A stretch of 64,000 nt of DNA from Sphingomonas sp. GTDB taxonomy: Bacteria; Pseudomonadota; Alphaproteobacteria; Sphingomonadales; Sphingomonadaceae. Positions 3,728 through 16,181 of the stretch are shown here, one piece after another (within the stretch, counting starts at the first letter, position 1; each line of letters begins with the position of its first letter). The position numbers and the translations under genes were made by a program. The DNA lies in contig JACDEB010000002.1 of the NCBI GenBank assembly GCA_013816595.1, positions 1 to 64,000 of the forward strand, given 5' to 3'. Under the pieces are notes generated by a model. It was not told the origin of the DNA, made no database searches, and worked only from the letters and a program-made list of their open reading frames with translations.

Positions 3728-4435
3728 CTACTCGCTTTTGCCCTTGTCGGCTGCTGCGTCGCCGGCGGGTTCAGCCGCAGGTTCAGCCGCGAGTTCAGCA
3801 TCTGCTGCCGGCGTTTCGGCTTCGGCTTCTGCCGTTGGGGCGGATGCTTCGTCAGCCGTGTCGGACTTGAGCGGTTTGTCATCCTCATTCGCTGCCGAAC
3901 CCGGAACCACATCCTCGGTGAAGGTCGCGGTGTCGCGTTCGAACATCTGAGCCATGACGTCGATACCCTGGGCCTGGAGATCGGCTTCCTCGGGCGAACG
4001 GGCGACGTTGACCTTGATCATCGCGATCACTTCGGGGTGAAGGACGACCTTCACGTCGTGCATACCGATGGCCTTGATCGGGCGGTCGAGGACGATCTGG
4101 CTCTTGACCAGCTTGACCCCGTCGAGGTCGAGCGCCTCGATCATGTCGCGCGCCGAAACCGAACCGTAGAGCTGGCCGGTGTTGGATGCCTGCCGGATCA
4201 GCTTGACGGTCTTGCCGTCGATGTCCTTGGCCGCTTTTTCGGCGTCGCCACGCTTGCTTTCGTTGTCGGCGACGATCTTCGTGCGGTTGCTTTCGAACAG
4301 CTTGCGATTGGCCTCGTTGGCGCGCAGCGCCTTTTTATTGGGGAGGAGGAAGTTGCGGGCAAAGCCGTCCTTCACCGTCACCACATCGCCGATGGCGCCG
4401 AGCTTTTCGACGCGCTCAAGCAGAATGATTTCCAT
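3728..4435 (-). CDS. rplI: 50S ribosomal protein L9
   Basis: The N-terminus MEIILLERVEKLGAIGDVV, followed by VKDGFARNFLLPNKKA, is the L9 signature. It is followed by the long central helix (about residues 45-80) and the C-terminal rRNA-binding domain (to about 150). At 235 residues it is much longer than the usual 150. The excess is an acidic Ala/Glu/Pro-rich tail after about residue 150 (AEAETPAADAEL and similar), as is common in sphingomonads. It is the last gene of an S6-S18-L9 operon, 12 bases after rpsR, and is followed by a terminator. The product is a structural component of the large subunit near the base of the L1 stalk. Confidence 0.97.
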   Translation of the reverse strand: MEIILLERVEKLGAIGDVVTVKDGFARNFLLPNKKALRANEANRKLFESNRTKIVADNESKRGDAEKAAKDIDGKTVKLIRQASNTGQLYGSVSARDMIEALDLDGVKLVKSQIVLDRPIKAIGMHDVKVVLHPEVIAMIKVNVARSPEEADLQAQGIDVMAQMFERDTATFTEDVVPGSAANEDDKPLKSDTADEASAPTAEAEAETPAADAELAAEPAAEPAGDAAADKGKSE

Positions 4436-4447
4436 GTCGAGCGTTCC

Positions 4448-4672
4448 TTATTTCACGACGTAGGGAAGCAGGCCGATGTGGCGGGCGCGCTTGATCGCTT
4501 TCGCCAGCTCGCGCTGCTTCTTGGTGCTGACCGCAGTGATGCGGCTGGGGACGATCTTGCCCCGCTCCGAGACGAAGCCCTGGAGCAAGCGGATGTCCTT
4601 ATAATCGATCGTCGGTGCGTCCTTGCCCGAAAACGGGCACGACTTGCGGCGGCGGAAGAATGCGCGGGCCAT
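4448..4672 (-). CDS. rpsR: 30S ribosomal protein S18
   Basis: This 74-residue protein has the classic S18 core: [28 protein letters not shown], then [19 protein letters not shown]. The N-terminus [15 protein letters not shown] carries the basic RNA-binding patch. It binds the S6 partner on the platform of the small subunit. Its ATG overlaps the rpsF stop codon by one base (TAATG), so translation is probably coupled. Confidence 0.97.
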
Positions 4673-5133
4673 TATCCGACCTCCTCTTCACGGTCTTCGC
4701 GGGGGCGAAATTCGCTGCGCTCGCCACGGTCACCACGGTCACCGCGGTCACCACGGTCCCCGCGGTCACCACGGTCGCCGGGACCGCGCGAGCGATCCTT
4801 GTCGCCGCGATCGCTCCGCCGCATCATCGCCGAGGGACCGGTTTCATGGGCGTCGACGCGGATGGTGAGGAAACGGATGATATCCTCGTTGATGTTCGAC
4901 TGGCGCTCGAGCTCAGCGATCGCGGCCGGCGGGGCATCGACGTCGAGCATGACGTAATGCGCTTTGCGGTTCTTGGCGATGCGGTAAGCGAGGCTCTTGA
5001 GGCCCCAGGTCTCGGTCTTGGCGACCTTGCCCTTATTGTCGGTGATGATCTTGGTGGCGTTTTCCGCGAGCGCATCGACCTGGGCCTGGGCAAGGTCCTG
5101 TCGAGCGAGGAAAACATGCTCGTAAAGCGGCAT
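4672..5133 (-). CDS. rpsF: 30S ribosomal protein S6 with an arginine-glycine-aspartate repeat tail
   Basis: The start [20 protein letters not shown] is the normal S6 N-terminus, and the ferredoxin-like fold runs to about residue 105 ([10 protein letters not shown], then [10 protein letters not shown], then [11 protein letters not shown], then [11 protein letters not shown]-type). The protein is 153 residues, against about 95-135 usually. The extra tail contains five consecutive GDR triplets plus GER, encoded by a 9-bp tandem repeat, and ends in acidic residues. A start at 5133 is used; a longer frame reaching 5250 lacks homology. It is the first gene of the operon and pairs with S18. Confidence 0.96.
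4722..4775 (-). repeat. six 9-bp tandem repeats inside rpsF
   Basis: The unit CACCACGGT (plus strand) with small variants is repeated six times in register with codons, giving Gly-Asp-Arg (last unit Gly-Glu-Arg) on the minus strand. Slippage here would change the tail length by whole triplets without breaking the frame. Confidence 0.9.
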
Positions 5134-5285
5134 GCGTAAACTTCCATATTGGCCGATCGCTGACGCCGCACCGTGCGAGCGCCCCTCCGGCTGTCGTCTC
5201 AAGTAAAACCGGCGCCAGGGACAAGCCCAAAGCGCCAGCGAGCCGCCCATTGCCGCAATTCGCTCGAAATGGCAAGTATGGCGGC

Positions 5286-6458
5286 ATGGCGACCAAGCTT
5301 CATTCGGTGCCGCCCGCGCCTGACCCGCTCGACGACATGAGCCTGCCCGGCTGGCTGTACCACGACGCGGAGTTTTTCGCGGCGGAGGAGCGGGCGTTCC
5401 TCCGCGCGAGCCCGCAAATCGTCTGCCACGAAAGCGAGATCGCGCTGGCGGGCGAGTGGCGCAGCATCGATTTCCTCGGCGAAAGCGTCATCGTCATGCG
5501 CGGCGACGACGGCGCGGTGCGTGCTTTTCACAATGTCTGCCGCCACCGCGGTTCGCGACTGGTCGATGGCGAGGCCGGCTGCGCCAAGGTGCTGACCTGC
5601 CCCTATCACGCGTGGAGCTATGACCGGCGCGGGGCGCTGGTCGGGGTGCCGCAGCGCCATGAATATCCCGGGCTCGATACCGCCAGCCACGGGCTCAAGC
5701 CGGTCGCGATCGAGCAATGGCGCGGGTTCCTGTTCGTGCGGCTTGAGGGGGGCTTGCCGAGCGTCGCCGAAATGATGGCGCCTTACGACGCCGAGGTTGC
5801 GCCGTATCGCTTCGAGGATTTGCGGGCGATCGGCCGGGTGACCCTGCGCCCGCGCGACCTCAACTGGAAGACCATCGCCGACAATTACAGCGACCACCTC
5901 CACATCCCCATCGGCCATCCCGGGCTCACCCGATTGTTCGGCAAGAGTTACCAGATCGAAGCCGCCGAGTGGATCGACCGGATGGAGGGCGAGCTGCGCG
6001 ACGATCTGTCGGCTAATGTGTCCGAACGCGCTTACCAAACGCTGTTACCGCCGGTTGAGCATCTGCCAGCCAGCCACCAGCGCAAGTGGCTCTATTACAA
6101 GCTGTTCCCGTGCGTCGCCTTCGACATCTATCCCGACCAGGTCGATTTCATGCAGTGGCTGCCGGTCAGCGCGACCAAGAGCGTGATCCGCGAAATCAGC
6201 TATGCGCTGCCCGATGCCCGCCGCGAGATGACGGCGGCGCGGGCGCTCAACTGGCGCATCAACCGGCGCGTCAATCACGAGGACACAGTGCTGATCAGCC
6301 GGGTCCAGCGCGGCATGGAAAGCGCCGCCTACCAGGCCGGACCGTTGGGTAAGAGCGAAGTCTGCCTGCGCAGCTTCGCGCGGCGGCTGCGGAACCTTAT
6401 TCCGGAGGCGCGGCTGGAGCGTTCGCCACCGCCGGGGTGGCTCCAACCGACGAATTGA
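5286..6458 (+). CDS. Rieske aromatic ring-hydroxylating oxygenase, alpha subunit type
   Basis: This 390-residue protein has an N-terminal Rieske [2Fe-2S] domain with CRHRG and CPYHAW (about residues 83-108, C-x-H...C-x2-H). Its C-terminal mononuclear-iron domain has [12 protein letters not shown] (about residues 199-210), giving the two His ligands. These are the features of terminal oxygenase alpha subunits acting on aromatic or quaternary-amine substrates. No beta subunit, ferredoxin or reductase is adjacent, so electrons must come from elsewhere. Start 5286 (MATKLHS) is chosen over 5250. The 3' end overlaps the convergent permease gene by 62 bases. The substrate is not predictable here. 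Confidence 0.87.
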
Positions 6459-7722
6459 TGCGCTGCATCACGGCCCTGACGACGAGGCCGGCGGCGAGCA
6501 GCATCAAGCACCACAGGTTTGCTTCGAGCCCGATCCCGTAAACCGCAAAGGCAATGAACAGCACCGCAAGCGCGAGCACGGCCCGTGAGGCCGGCGCCGG
6601 GCTGCACTTCCATGCGGCGAGGGCGGCGGTCAGATAGACGACGATCACCGCCGCGGTCGACAGCAGGATAATGAAGGTGAACAGGCTGGCGGTGGCGCGG
6701 CTGCTGTTGGCGAGCAGAAGGACGATGCTCAACGCCATGCCGACGATTTGCGACACGACGGGCGTGTTGACCCCGCGGGTCTTCGCCATGAACGCCGGCA
6801 AATCGCCGCGAAGCGCCATCGCATAACCAAGTTCGCCAGTGCCCAGGATCAGCCCGTTGAGACATCCAATCGCGGCCACCGCGATGGTCAAGGCGGCGAA
6901 GGTTGCGGCTCCGCGCCCCCAGTGGGACACCAGAGCGTCAGCGAACGGGGCCGCGGAATTCGCCACGACGCCCGCGGGCAGAAGCATCTGGATCGCGGTT
7001 CCGGCGACCAAATAAAGCGCAACGACGAACGCCGTCCCGCCGATCAGCGCGCGGGGAATGGTTCGGGACGGATCGCGCACTTTGCCGACCGGAGTCGTCG
7101 CGCTTTCAAAGCCGGTGAAGGCGAAGAAGGTGAGGGCGGACGCGGTCGCGATATTGGCGAAACTGACCGGCATCTGGGCCAACGGCTCGAACGTTCCACC
7201 GCTCGCGCCGCGCTCGATGAACAGCCAAATCACTGCGAGCAAGGGCAGGAGCTTGATGGCCACGGTAACGAGCGAAAATCCGCCGACCGCGCGCACTCCG
7301 ATCGCGTTGACCGCGGTCAATATGACGAGCCAGCCAATGGCGACCAGCAGAACCCCGGCTGGCCCGCCGAAATCGACCCCGGCGAACGCCAGTGCAGAGG
7401 CGGCGCCAATGGCGACCGAGGCCTGCGCGACCCAATTGGAAACCCAGAAGCTCCAGGCGACTAGGAACGCCACGGTCGAGCCATATTCGCGCTCGACATT
7501 GGCCTGGATTCCTTCGCCGCCAAGCCGCGACAGACGCGCCATGCCATAAGCGATGCACAGCACTCCAATTCCGCTGACAACCCAGCCGATGAGCGCGTTG
7601 CGGCCGAGCGGCGCGAGGCTGACCGGGAGCATGAAAATGCCCGACCCGATGATCGTTCCGACAACCAGCGCGCTCGTCATCCACACTCCGATCATCGCTG
7701 ATTGATCGCTTCGGTCGGCCAT
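6397..7722 (-). CDS. APC-superfamily amino acid permease (AdiC/YjeH-like)
   Basis: This 441-residue, strongly hydrophobic protein has about 12 membrane helices. The first helix carries the APC unwound motif GTIIGSGIFMLP (about residues 22-33), and the family pattern FAFTGFESATTP occurs at about residues 199-210. It is an inner-membrane amino acid or polyamine transporter; the substrate is unknown. It is transcribed divergently from fabD with an 81-base gap and converges on the Rieske gene with an overlap of 62 bases. Confidence 0.88.
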   Translation of the reverse strand: MADRSDQSAMIGVWMTSALVVGTIIGSGIFMLPVSLAPLGRNALIGWVVSGIGVLCIAYGMARLSRLGGEGIQANVEREYGSTVAFLVAWSFWVSNWVAQASVAIGAASALAFAGVDFGGPAGVLLVAIGWLVILTAVNAIGVRAVGGFSLVTVAIKLLPLLAVIWLFIERGASGGTFEPLAQMPVSFANIATASALTFFAFTGFESATTPVGKVRDPSRTIPRALIGGTAFVVALYLVAGTAIQMLLPAGVVANSAAPFADALVSHWGRGAATFAALTIAVAAIGCLNGLILGTGELGYAMALRGDLPAFMAKTRGVNTPVVSQIVGMALSIVLLLANSSRATASLFTFIILLSTAAVIVVYLTAALAAWKCSPAPASRAVLALAVLFIAFAVYGIGLEANLWCLMLLAAGLVVRAVMQRINSSVGATPAVANAPAAPPE

Positions 7723-11631: not shown

Positions 11632-12759
11632 ATGGTCGAGCAGGACTTTTACGAACTGCTGGGGATTCAGCGCGGCGCCGATGACGCCGCGATCAAGGCA
11701 GCATATCGGACGATGGCCAAGGAATGCCATCCCGACCGCCATGGCGGCTGCGCCGACCAGGAAGCGCGGTTCAAAGCCATCAGCCACGCCTATGAGGTAC
11801 TCAAGGATTCGCAAAAGCGTGCCGCCTACGACCGCTTCGGCCCTGCCGCCTTTCAGAATGGCGGCGGCGGCGGCGCGGATCCCTTTGGCGGAGGGCAGGG
11901 CTTCGAAGGCTTTTCGGATATTTTCTCGTCGATTTTCGGCGAATTCATGGATCCGCGCGGACAGCGGCAGAACGCCGCGCGCGGGGCCGATTTGCGCTAC
12001 GATATCGAACTTAGCCTGGAAGACGCGTTCACCGGCATCGAAAAGACCGTGACCCTGGACGCGCTCGGCACTTGCACCGCATGCAAGGGCCGGGGCTGTG
12101 CCATAGCCGATCATTGCGCCGAAACCTGCGGCACCTGCGGCGGGGCCGGCAAGGTTCGCGCCCAGCAGGGCTTCTTCGTGGTCGAGCGCGGCTGCCCGAC
12201 CTGTCGCGGCAGCGGCCAGGTGATTTCCGACCCGTGCGCCAATTGCGGCGGCGAAGGCCGCGCCCTCAACCAGCGAAAATTGTCGGTCAACATCCCCGCC
12301 GGAGTCGACGAAGGCACCCGCATCCGCGTTGCCGGCGAAGGCGAAGCGGGGATTCGCGGGGCATCAAGCGGCGACCTTTATCTGTTCGTCCACATGAAGC
12401 GGCACATTATTTACGAGCGCGAGGGCACCAGCCTCATCGCTGAATGCCCGATCAGTTTCACGACTGCAGCGTTGGGCGGGTCGATCGAGCTTCCCGGGAT
12501 CGACGGTAAATCGGTCGAAATCAAGATTCCCGCCGGGCTTCAATCGGGCGAGCAATTGCGCCATCGCGGTTCGGGCATGAGCGTGCTCAACGGTCGTGGC
12601 CGTGGCGATTTGGTCGCCCGGATGCTGGTCGAAACGCCGACGAAACTGTCGAAGGAGCAAAAGGGAATTCTCGAGCAGTTTCGCGCTGTCGAAACGGGCG
12701 ACGAATGCCCGGCGAGCAAGGGCTTCTTCAGCCGCATCCGCGACATATTAGGCGCCTGA
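11632..12759 (+). CDS. dnaJ: molecular chaperone DnaJ (Hsp40)
   Basis: This 375-residue protein has the J-domain [14 protein letters not shown]...CHPDRH (HPD at about residues 34-36), a Gly/Phe-rich linker (about 76-90), and the cysteine-rich zinc domain with four CxxCxGxG repeats: [24 protein letters not shown] and CANCGGEG (about 145-215). The C-terminal substrate-binding domains follow. It stimulates the ATPase of DnaK and delivers clients. It follows dnaK by 69 bases with a hairpin between. The family often has EHGG-type variation after HPDRH; here it is HGGCADQEA. Confidence 0.97.
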
Positions 12760-13587
12760 ACGCCCCACGCGCAGTTCGACGACAATGATTTGGAGCGCGA
12801 GGATGCGGGCGAACAGGCGGGCAATGCTTCGCCGTTCCACGCTGACGTGGCGCGGGGAATGATGGAGGCAGCAGACTGCCCCCCAGGACTCTGCTCCGTT
12901 GGCGAGCGGGAGGATCATGGCCGCTTTGGCGCCGCTTTCCGCGAGCCATATGCGTTCTTCGGTCGCGGGCTCGCGCAGGACTGATCGTGGCGTGTTGATC
13001 TGGTGGTCGAGGTCGAATTGAAGGGCAACCGCGGCTGAATTCAGGTCGACCACCATGAAATCATCGAAACCCGGTGCCAAGGCCGGCGGGCTCAGCGCCG
13101 TTCGGGCGGAAAATGCCTTCAATCCCGTCCTGGTCCAGATCGACACTTGATCGAACCCGGTCAGCGCCCGGGTCTGCCGCGCTGCCTGCTCGTTTAACCG
13201 GGTGACATCATCGCCATCGTCGATCCGCGCCAGCATTCCTTCGATGACCCCGACCGAATCGCCGAATCCGTGCCTGCCGGAGCGTTCGGCGTCGATCCCG
13301 AAACCATCATCATTCCGCCGGATCGACAAGTCGAAGGGCGTGCCGCCATCGACCAGGGCGATCTGGAAAAGATGCTCGGTCGTGCCGGCGCCCGGAAGCA
13401 GCGTCATGCGGTTGCGGATGTCGTGGATCGCAGTTTCCGAAAACAGGTCCGTGACGGGGCGCCCGAGGATCGAGTTCGCGGACGCCGGGAGGAAGTCGCC
13501 GACATTGGCGGAGACCGCGCTCACTCGCCAATCGCTCGACAGGCCGAGATGGAATCCAATCGGCTGAATCGTCGGCGCTTCGGCCAT
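12748..13587 (-). CDS. short bacteriophytochrome-like PAS-GAF protein
   Basis: This 279-residue protein resembles the N-terminal half of bacteriophytochromes. A PAS-2-like domain begins at APTIQPIGFHLGL and includes ILGRPVTDLFSE (about residues 40-52). A GAF domain follows from about residue 136 (RALTGFDQVSIW) and ends with SWGAVCCLHHSPRHVSVERR (about 240-259), matching the phytochrome WGLIACHHxSPRxV block. The usual N-terminal biliverdin-attaching Cys, the PASDIP segment of the GAF domain, the PHY domain and the kinase are all missing. It starts 6 bases after the purB stop codon and is likely co-transcribed. A signalling or heme/bilin-independent role is possible; chromophore binding is doubtful. 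Confidence 0.65.
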   Translation of the reverse strand: MAEAPTIQPIGFHLGLSSDWRVSAVSANVGDFLPASANSILGRPVTDLFSETAIHDIRNRMTLLPGAGTTEHLFQIALVDGGTPFDLSIRRNDDGFGIDAERSGRHGFGDSVGVIEGMLARIDDGDDVTRLNEQAARQTRALTGFDQVSIWTRTGLKAFSARTALSPPALAPGFDDFMVVDLNSAAVALQFDLDHQINTPRSVLREPATEERIWLAESGAKAAMILPLANGAESWGAVCCLHHSPRHVSVERRSIARLFARILALQIIVVELRVGRSGA

Positions 13588-13593
13588 GACCTG

Positions 13594-14919
13594 TTATTCT
13601 TCCTGGCCGAACACGCGCCCAAAAATCGTGTCGACATGTTTGAAATGATAATCGAGATCGAACAGCCCATCGAGCTCGGCCGCGGGCAATTTCGCGGTCA
13701 CTTCGGGGTCGGCCTTGAGCAGATCGAGCAGCGACAACTGCCCGTCGCTTTCCCACACCTTCATCGCATTGCGCTGGACAAGGGCGTAGCTGTCTTCGCG
13801 GTTCATTCCGGCCTGGGTCAGCGCCAGAAGCACGCGCTGCGAATGGATCAGCCCGCCCATTCGATCGAGGTTCTTTTGCATCCGTTCGGGGTAGACGAGC
13901 AATTTGTCGATGACATTGGTCAGCCGGGCGAGCGCGAAATCGAGCGTGATCGTGGCGTCCGGCCCGATGAACCGCTCGACCGAGGAATGCGAGATGTCGC
14001 GCTCGTGCCACAAGGCGACATTCTCCAGCGCCGGAAGCGCTGCCGAACGGACGACCCGGGCTAGGCCGGTAAGGTTTTCGGTCAGCACCGGATTGCGCTT
14101 GTGCGGCATCGCCGAACTGCCCTTCTGCCCGGGCGCGAAATATTCCTCGGCCTCAAGCACCTCGGTGCGCTGGAGATGGCGGATTTCGACCGCCAGCCGC
14201 TCGATCGAACTGGCAATGACGCCGAGCGTCGCGAAGAACATCGCGTGGCGGTCGCGCGGGATGATCTGGGTCGAGACCGGCTCGGCGGACAGACCGAGTT
14301 CCTTGGCGATATGCGCTTCGACCGACGGCGGGACATTGGCGAAGGTCCCGATCGCACCCGAAATCGCGCAGGTGGCGATGTCGTCGCGCGCTGCCACCAG
14401 CCGGGCGCGATTGCGGGCGAATTCGGCATAAGCCTGGGCCAGTTTCAGACCGAAGGTGGTCGGCTCCGCGTGAATGCCGTGGCTTCGGCCCATGGTCGGG
14501 GTCAGTTTATGCTCGATCGCCCGCCGCTTGAGCACAACGAGCAAAGCGTCGAGATCGTCGGTCAGAAGTTCCGCGGACTGCTTCAACTGCACCGCCAGCG
14601 CCGTGTCGAGCACGTCGGAACTGGTCATGCCCTGGTGGAGCCAGCGCCGCTCGGGGCCCAATTTCTCCCCGGCCCAGGTGAGGAAGGCGATCACGTCATG
14701 CTTGGTCACCGCCTCGATGGCGTCGATCGCGGGGACGTCGATGTCGCCCAGCGCATTGGCGTCATAGGCCTTGCGGATGGTCGCTGCGTCGGCCGCGGGG
14801 ATCATCCCGATCGCGCCCATCGCTTCAGCCGCGAAGACTTCGATCTGCCACCAGATGCGGTAACGGTTTTCGGCCGACCAGATCGTCGTCATTTCCGGGC
14901 GGGAATAGCGGGGGACCAT
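13594..14919 (-). CDS. purB: adenylosuccinate lyase
   Basis: This 441-residue protein begins MVPRYSRPEMTTIWS and carries the superfamily signature GSSAMPHKRNP (about residues 268-278). It also has the active-site regions TSSDVLDTALAVQL and GRSHGIHAEPTTFG (with the catalytic His). It catalyses two steps of purine synthesis, releasing fumarate from SAICAR and from adenylosuccinate. Start 14919 matches the family; the in-frame extension to 14994 does not. No clear Shine-Dalgarno is visible. A phytochrome-like gene follows directly. Confidence 0.96.
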   Translation of the reverse strand: MVPRYSRPEMTTIWSAENRYRIWWQIEVFAAEAMGAIGMIPAADAATIRKAYDANALGDIDVPAIDAIEAVTKHDVIAFLTWAGEKLGPERRWLHQGMTSSDVLDTALAVQLKQSAELLTDDLDALLVVLKRRAIEHKLTPTMGRSHGIHAEPTTFGLKLAQAYAEFARNRARLVAARDDIATCAISGAIGTFANVPPSVEAHIAKELGLSAEPVSTQIIPRDRHAMFFATLGVIASSIERLAVEIRHLQRTEVLEAEEYFAPGQKGSSAMPHKRNPVLTENLTGLARVVRSAALPALENVALWHERDISHSSVERFIGPDATITLDFALARLTNVIDKLLVYPERMQKNLDRMGGLIHSQRVLLALTQAGMNREDSYALVQRNAMKVWESDGQLSLLDLLKADPEVTAKLPAAELDGLFDLDYHFKHVDTIFGRVFGQEE

Positions 14920-15116
14920 GGGGAGGGCGGCTAGCAGGGGCTGCTCGAGGGTGCAAATCCGCCCATCGCAATTTGTCCTAGTCGACAAAGGCACCTTGTG
15001 CGTACGCTCGGACCAGGTCGAATAAGATTAGAAAATGGTTTGTCGAAAGTGAATTTCTGCTATTAACCGACTCGCCGAATCGATCGAACGAATGTTCGAA
15101 GCGAAAAGGCATCCCC

Positions 15117-15353
15117 ATGAAAGACGTGGCCAACAAGGGTATTTCATTCGAGCTTGACGAACGTCAGGTCGAGGCGCTCAGGACAATCGCGGGTGGGCGA
15201 GCCGTGCGTTTAAGCGGAAAGCTCCGCGGTTCACGCCTCAATATCGAATTTATTGCCTGCAATTCGCCCTTTTCATCCTGTAATTCGGCTTTTTCTTCGT
15301 GCAATTCCGCGTTCTCATCCTGTAATTCGACATTCGCGTCGAAAGCGGAATAG
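15117..15353 (+). CDS. small protein with C-terminal cysteine heptad repeats (unknown function)
   Basis: This 78-residue protein has a leader-like N-terminal part (FELDERQVEALRTIAGGRAVRLSGK, then NIEFIA), then four consecutive heptads of the form C-N-S-x-F-[SA]-S and a short tail SKAE. The heptads are encoded by four 21-bp DNA repeats, and the Cys codons alternate TGC/TGT. AAAAGG lies 8 bases before the ATG. The layout (leader plus repeated core) resembles a ribosomally made precursor peptide or a metal-binding repeat, but no known family is recognised. The next gene downstream is a broken ferritin-like enzyme. The reverse strand of the repeat would encode a coiled coil, which I consider the less likely reading. 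Confidence 0.55.
   Translation: MKDVANKGISFELDERQVEALRTIAGGRAVRLSGKLRGSRLNIEFIACNSPFSSCNSAFSSCNSAFSSCNSTFASKAE
15258..15341 (+). repeat. four 21-bp tandem repeats encoding CNSxFxS heptads
   Basis: The units start at 15258, 15279, 15300 and 15321, and each begins TGCAATTC or TGTAATTC. Units 1 and 3 resemble each other more than 2 and 4, which hints at an earlier duplication of a 42-bp pair. Confidence 0.85.
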
Positions 15354-15437
15354 CTCACCCTAAACCCATCATCCTCGCCATTGCGCTTCGGCGCTAGGTG
15401 TGGGGTGACTTGACTCGATAGGGAAGGCAAAAGGGCC

Positions 15438-16181
15438 ATGAACGCAGTGATGGAGGTCGTTCGCGATCGATTGCCGAGTCTTGAAACTGAATGCCCCATG
15501 TATTGGTCCGCATTCGGACAGGCGTGGCTTGCTCATCCGCCTCCCTACGGGGAGGCTTGGTATGGCGACCTTTTCCGCGAAAAGGCGATTGATTTAGAAT
15601 GGCTGGCCGGGATCATAGCACTTAATTCGCGAAAAGAAGCGGACGGTGCCCGCCAGCTATGGGCTTTTGCCTGACGAATAAGCGATGACGTTATTCGACC
15701 CCAGGTTCGGCAGCATGCCATCGACGAGGCGCGTCACGCCGCTTTTTACATAGCAATGCTGGAACTAATGTTTCCGGGCGCATTTGCGGCGCAGGATTTG
15801 GCTCGTCTGCGATCAAATGTCCCGCGATTCGATCGCGAAAACGACAGTTTGGACGCAGATCGTCTGGCTTCAACCGATGCAATCATCGACGAAACCGTTC
15901 AAATGAACATTGGAGAGGTGCGAACCCTCATCAACCAGGTGCTAATGCGACCGTTTGTCGCCTACCTGACGCCCGACGAAAACCGGCAACGCGCATTGAA
16001 ATTGATCGATGGACTTGGCGATGATGAGGCGGTGCATATTGAATATACAGCCCGTCTGATCGAAGGGTTCGGTAATCGCGACAGGGTAGCTCATTTTGCC
16101 GCGCTTCGCCTCGAAGAATTCAATGGGATTACCCGGAGAGAAGTGGGATCGGCCGAAGGAGTTCGCGAAGTTTTCGCGTAG
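15438..16181 (+). pseudogene. ferritin-like diiron protein interrupted by an in-frame TGA
   Basis: A single reading frame runs from ATG 15438 to TAG 16181 and would encode about 247 residues, but a TGA at 15672-15674 splits it. The upstream part ends ADGARQLWAFA; the frame then continues RISDDVIRPQVRQHAIDEARH without a shift. Two ExxH motifs (EARH just after the stop, EAVH in GDDEAVHIEYT at about residue 197) and flanking Glu-bearing helices (DLEWLAG, IDETVQM) fit a four-helix ferritin-like diiron oxidase, loosely of the AurF type. The substrate is unknown. Its position behind the cysteine-repeat gene suggests a functional link. Nonsense mutation is the simplest reading; recoding or sequence error are alternatives. 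Confidence 0.6.

Follow-up and report, generated by a model that had tools for sequence, protein, structure and literature searches.

A short PAS-GAF protein, very likely chromophore-free and phytochrome-derived, in the purB-dnaJ slot of Sphingomicrobium

Introduction

A bacteriophytochrome of Rhodopseudomonas palustris that passed from light to redox sensing reportedly lost its chromophore and kept a function, and it is said to retain its PHY and kinase parts and not to have been reduced to PAS-GAF. This bacteriophytochrome turned redox sensor (Vuillet et al. 2007, cited in PMC6879726) is the nearest precedent for the protein that we describe here, of which, by comparison, only PAS-GAF is left. 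The same source presents R. palustris bacteriophytochromes as needed for a response in which light-quality sensing is dispensable (Fixen et al. 2014, cited in PMC6879726); these apo-bacteriophytochromes are full-length and bilin-capable, unlike our protein. Stand-alone PAS or GAF proteins resemble it in size and in having no output domain, but both of its domains are of phytochrome type and traceable to a known phytochrome locus. Our literature searches returned no description of stand-alone, bilin-free PAS-GAF derivatives of phytochromes, which is not proof of their absence, and no paper on Sphingomicrobium phytochromes.

The protein is encoded in a 64,000-nucleotide stretch of Sphingomonas sp. 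DNA (hereafter the window; contig JACDEB010000002.1, positions 1 to 64,000) from a sphingomonad assembly of 1.9 Mb that is 83% complete (GCA_013816595.1). A prediction made earlier from the DNA letters of the window had taken it for a miniature phytochrome-like protein without chromophore cysteine or output domain. We followed this up across 71 species genomes of its genus, probably Sphingomicrobium in the wide GTDB sense, the window species included.

Results

The gene encoding the short protein lies on the reverse strand at 12748-13587 and runs uninterrupted from ATG to TAA over 279 codons, the intact frame that had been predicted. Its link to purB also held up: the frame of purB (adenylosuccinate lyase; 13594-14994, reverse strand; Pfam Lyase_1/ADSL_C) ends with its stop at 13594, leaving a gap of 6 bp to the ATG at 13587, and the two genes point in the same direction. 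At the other end, the gene converges on dnaJ (11632-12759, forward strand; Pfam DnaJ), the two 3' ends overlapping by 12 bp; synteny supports the assignment of both neighbors, which flank this slot across the genus. Upstream of the ATG there are only two further in-frame codons before a stop, so a longer form that includes the bilin-binding cysteine is impossible. A sequencing frameshift in a full phytochrome is ruled out as well, as dnaJ starts at the place expected for PHY and most of the short relatives are close in length to the window protein (262-315 aa). Between purB and radC, the window also contains a small coiled-coil ORF of 111 aa (15164-15499, reverse strand), ENAELHEEKAELQDEKGELQ, with a weak, below-cut-off Pfam match to ZapB (E 1.8e-4).

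Both domains of the short protein score above the Pfam cut-off: PAS_2 at residues 6-101 (13285-13572, reverse strand; E 2.6e-8) and GAF at residues 131-267 (12787-13197, reverse strand; E 2.5e-8). When the PDB was searched by sequence, the best 60 of 82 matches were bacteriophytochromes, cyanobacterial phytochromes, or fluorescent proteins engineered from them (best E 7.6e-14), confirming that the PAS_2 start and the GAF block had rightly been read as phytochrome marks. AlphaFold2 with 46 sequences gave a model with a mean pLDDT of 91, and the 50 best Foldseek matches to this model, at a TM of about 0.8, all came from phytochromes. Its structural relatives include Agrobacterium Agp2 and R. palustris BphP2/3. 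Modeling with five short sequences alone yielded the same secondary structure at a pLDDT of 71, so the model is not merely forced by full-length homologues. The phytochrome PAS-GAF fold, as predicted by these models, is retained in the short protein. Because the listed PDB matches are all phytochromes or their derivatives, the kinship is specifically with phytochromes; similarity only at the level of generic PAS/GAF domains, named at the outset as the outcome that would speak against a phytochrome origin, is ruled out by the PDB sequence matches and by Foldseek. The window protein shares its PAS_2-GAF fold with bacteriophytochromes of the HWE-kinase/receiver type, the IQPxG start and the IHxLRN and WG..C.H..PR motifs with bacteriophytochromes, and its genomic slot with the genus's own BphP. 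With PAS_2 followed by GAF, phytochrome relatives, and this common genomic position, it belongs by descent to the phytochrome superfamily.

Across the genus, the slot between purB and dnaJ is occupied in two ways, and this is the new observation: 20 of the 71 species have bphO and a full phytochrome of Pfam architecture PAS_2-GAF-PHY-HWE_HK-Response_reg there, whereas 29 of 71, the window species among them, have the short PAS-GAF gene and never bphO. Since the full operon and the short gene occupy one slot, the short gene was derived in place from a phytochrome. The purB link is thus kept in the relatives, in 29 short and 20 full forms; being inherited from the purB-bphO-bphP operon, it is on its own no hint of a role in purine metabolism. 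No PAS-GAF gene was found in the slot of the remaining 22 genomes (in several of them the stretch examined does not bridge purB and dnaJ), and the short gene is in this sense dispensable at the genus level. Where the stretch does bridge the two, the slot either contains no gene or is taken up by one of the metallo-beta-lactamase fold or of another kind, and no hidden, more diverged PAS-GAF gene was recognized in these 22 genomes. Many species without the short gene have a metallo-beta-lactamase-fold gene in or adjoining the slot (L282, L285, L287, L295, L297, L070, and L075), which suggests that it is a spot of frequent gene turnover.

Some loci have further peculiarities. In L125 (G066), a gene that reads as AhpD/carboxymuconolactone decarboxylase-like (5493-5991) separates purB from the short PAS-GAF gene and takes the position of bphO in other species; a bphO remnant was considered for this 500-bp gap and rejected on that reading. 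The phytochrome frame of L047 (S. daechungensis; 3986-6561) is broken inside PHY, and L062 (G020) has a small PAS-PHY fragment (5956-6284) beside a full copy.

Residue by residue, most of the bilin-binding apparatus is missing from the short protein. Full-length relatives begin VDLTNCDREPIH-LGAIQPIG and the window protein begins at ...TIQPIG, so the cysteine segment is missing; the biliverdin cysteine before PAS is present in 33/33 full forms and in 0/28 short forms. Within GAF, a stretch has shrunk by about 30 residues (residues ~150-182; 13042-13140, reverse strand), and the bilin-pocket segment with DIP is deleted at the site where relatives have RYPATDIP...LLRVITD. Comparison of the 28 short with the 33 full forms shows the DIP triad, the pocket Tyr, the His of PIHxEY, and the serines to be invariant or nearly so in full phytochromes and gone from all or most short forms, from which the pocket Arg has likewise been lost. 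The conserved C-terminal GAF helix, ERR..ARLFA, is retained; the protein ends after it, and the Pfam scan revealed no output domain. What had been noted as absent (bilin Cys, DIP segment, PHY, and kinase) is therefore absent by alignment, residue table, and Pfam, and structure prediction with alignment, the test proposed for this protein, led to phytochromes as the closest folds with the Cys and DIP segments gone. The features that make a bacteriophytochrome a photoreceptor, namely the bilin Cys, PASDIP and a pocket with His, Arg, Tyr, and Ser, a PHY domain, an output kinase with receiver or other effector, and a supply of biliverdin by BphO (no match in the 83% complete genome), are all lacking here.

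Constraint differs in position between the two forms. The ratio of PAS to pocket dN/dS (95% intervals in parentheses) is 0.37 (0.18-0.76) in group A, to which the window protein belongs, 0.25 (0.15-0.41) and 0.47 (0.30-0.77) in two B groups, and 0.49 (0.25-0.89) in group C, vs. 2.21 (1.32-3.82), 1.99 (1.17-3.21), and 1.98 (1.04-4.25) in three sets of full phytochromes, with no overlap between the intervals of the four short and the three full groups; the contrast is internal to the same genes and so less touched by dS saturation than absolute values are. Constraint has moved from the pocket, where it lies in bacteriophytochromes, to the C-terminal GAF helix and the PAS domain, the most constrained part of the short forms. 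This shift bears on the alternative that survives best, although we regard it as unlikely: a small-molecule or redox sensor that signals via a partner and uses either a new ligand in the emptied GAF or PAS cavity or a reactive Cys240. The redox-sensing bacteriophytochrome (Vuillet 2007, cited in PMC6879726) is a precedent for such a change, and 22/28 short forms have kept Cys240; against this, full phytochromes keep this residue equally well (30/33), so that it is inherited, constraint is lowest in the pocket, and the NKFDE motif of cyclic-nucleotide binding was sought and not found, which also tells against a cGMP-type GAF.

Pairs of short forms more than 55% identical have dN/dS values of mostly 0.10-0.36 over a dS of ~0.8-3 (NG86; distances are approximate near dS 1, close to saturation), for example dN 0.34 and dS 1.01 for G000-G082. 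Purifying selection thus maintains the short gene product as a protein, and this makes it improbable that we are looking at a decaying phytochrome pseudogene whose PAS-GAF frame is open by chance. Such decay would fit a slot with the full form in only 20/71 species and no PAS-GAF gene found in 22, the faster evolution of short than of full forms, and the G085 form, which continues out of frame into the antisense strand of dnaJ. It does not fit the low dN/dS, the six PAS residues identical in 28/28 short forms (W20, S26, N28, H55, R58, and N59), or a PAS dN/dS of 0.08 in the B group of 10 species, below the 0.17-0.31 of full-length phytochromes; in simulations of neutral evolution, moreover, the frame stayed open in only ~0.4% of runs at one substitution per site. 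Neither a dN/dS near 1 nor broken frames, the marks of a pseudogene, were found, G085 being the one doubtful frame.

A PHY domain (PF00360) and BphO were not found in the window genome, where at 83% completeness such a gene could be missed, as it hardly could in 12 near-complete relatives. Genus-wide, a PHY protein occurs in 38/71 genomes and BphO, searched with its own profile, in 37/71, all of them among the PHY genomes; only G020 (L079) combines a full phytochrome with the lack of a BphO match. Neither PHY proteins nor BphO were detected anywhere in the genomes of the 23 species that have the short form only (23/23, 12 of them ≥95% complete), and biliverdin sensing is therefore very unlikely in these species. 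Six species (G004, G012, G022, G030, G062, and G066) have a full phytochrome at another locus in addition to the short gene in the slot, which, with the conserved C-terminal GAF helix, would be compatible with a short protein that dimerizes with this phytochrome and tunes it; we consider this very improbable, and the 23 species with no detectable PHY protein mean that it cannot be the general role. That the short protein is still a photoreceptor, with a bilin or other chromophore bound without the classical Cys, is scarcely credible despite its predicted phytochrome fold and the still phytochrome-like WGAVCCLHHSPR, given the undetected BphO, the Cys, DIP, and pocket Arg, His, Tyr, and Ser gone in all or most short forms, and a pocket under the least constraint. 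With no Cys, no pocket, and no BphO, we infer strongly that it is no ordinary biliverdin photoreceptor.

The short forms of G003 and G085 group with the full-length G088 in both the PAS-GAF tree and the flank tree and so were truncated separately from the others; on these phylogenies, truncation occurred independently at least two times in the genus. The PAS-GAF tree unites the other 27 short forms in one clade (99/97), whereas the flank genes reject such a clade and the dnaK+dnaJ+purB and rpoB trees require ~6-8 changes between short and full. Either there were more independent truncations, joined by long branches (long-branch attraction may explain the 27-member clade), or alleles moved by recombination in the conserved flanks. 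The window-type short forms (G000, G082, and G028) are 49-57% identical to the window protein, which clearly points to common descent after truncation; G000 and G082 as sisters are rejected by the flank genes (p 1e-20) and not by rpoB (p 0.30), and lateral spread of the window-type allele is a possibility. A separate truncation of a G025-like phytochrome to give the C-type is not rejected (p 0.16). No short form turned up outside the genus, either in ~115 genomes sampled from the order, whose listed matches all lie in frames of 750-1170 aa, or among the 80 best GTDB loci. The G085 form (L123; 5734-6522) is a young truncated phytochrome with PPGDIS in place of PASDIP; its 397-aa frame leaves GAF for antisense dnaJ, and it is possibly a decaying intermediate.

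Discussion

Our preferred reading, to which we give a probability of about 0.75, is that the short gene is the surviving PAS-GAF front end of the slot bacteriophytochrome, under selection and bilin-free, and that its product is likely a small dimeric protein-interaction module. We hold with considerably more confidence that the protein is chromophore-free, under selection, and phytochrome-derived: it has the same locus as the full operon, BphO is undetected in short-only species, and selection has shifted to PAS, all of which bears out the original prediction of a chromophore-free PAS-GAF protein derived from a phytochrome.

From an ancestral purB-bphO-bphP slot, comparison with relatives shows the loss of bphO and of some 20 initial codons, the biliverdin Cys among them, a shrinking of the GAF bilin pocket, and the loss of the PHY, HWE kinase, and receiver parts; some short alleles may have passed from one species to another when the purB-dnaJ interval was exchanged. 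The product would most likely be a small soluble dimer, held together by its GAF helices if it follows phytochromes in general, that binds a partner signaling protein via its PAS face and GAF helices and serves as a non-photosensory adaptor or modulator. It would have no photochemistry and has probably gained a light-independent job. As partner we tentatively favor an HWE/HisKA2 kinase that stands alone or the branch of the general stress response into which the parent phytochrome perhaps fed, although the chances of either are modest. The general stress response of Sphingomonas has been the subject of several papers (e.g., PMC6599016 and PMC5898713), and nothing in them is linked to the short gene.

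A broader proposition, which we put at somewhat under even odds, is that a new class of PAS-GAF signaling proteins, small and blind to light, has repeatedly been made from a phytochrome in this lineage, that short and full forms circulate as alternative alleles of one locus, and that PAS, usually viewed as a holder of bilin, has an older protein-binding function that outlives light sensing.

For annotation, the locus is a warning that PAS_2 and GAF matches may earn a protein the label "phytochrome-like" even where biliverdin light sensing is unlikely. For the biology of the family, it offers a natural experiment on what phytochromes do besides sensing light: the switch of constraint from the bilin pocket to PAS points to a light-independent function of PAS-GAF, which could be approached in cultivated species that have the short form only, such as the isolate Sphingomonas cremea G124.
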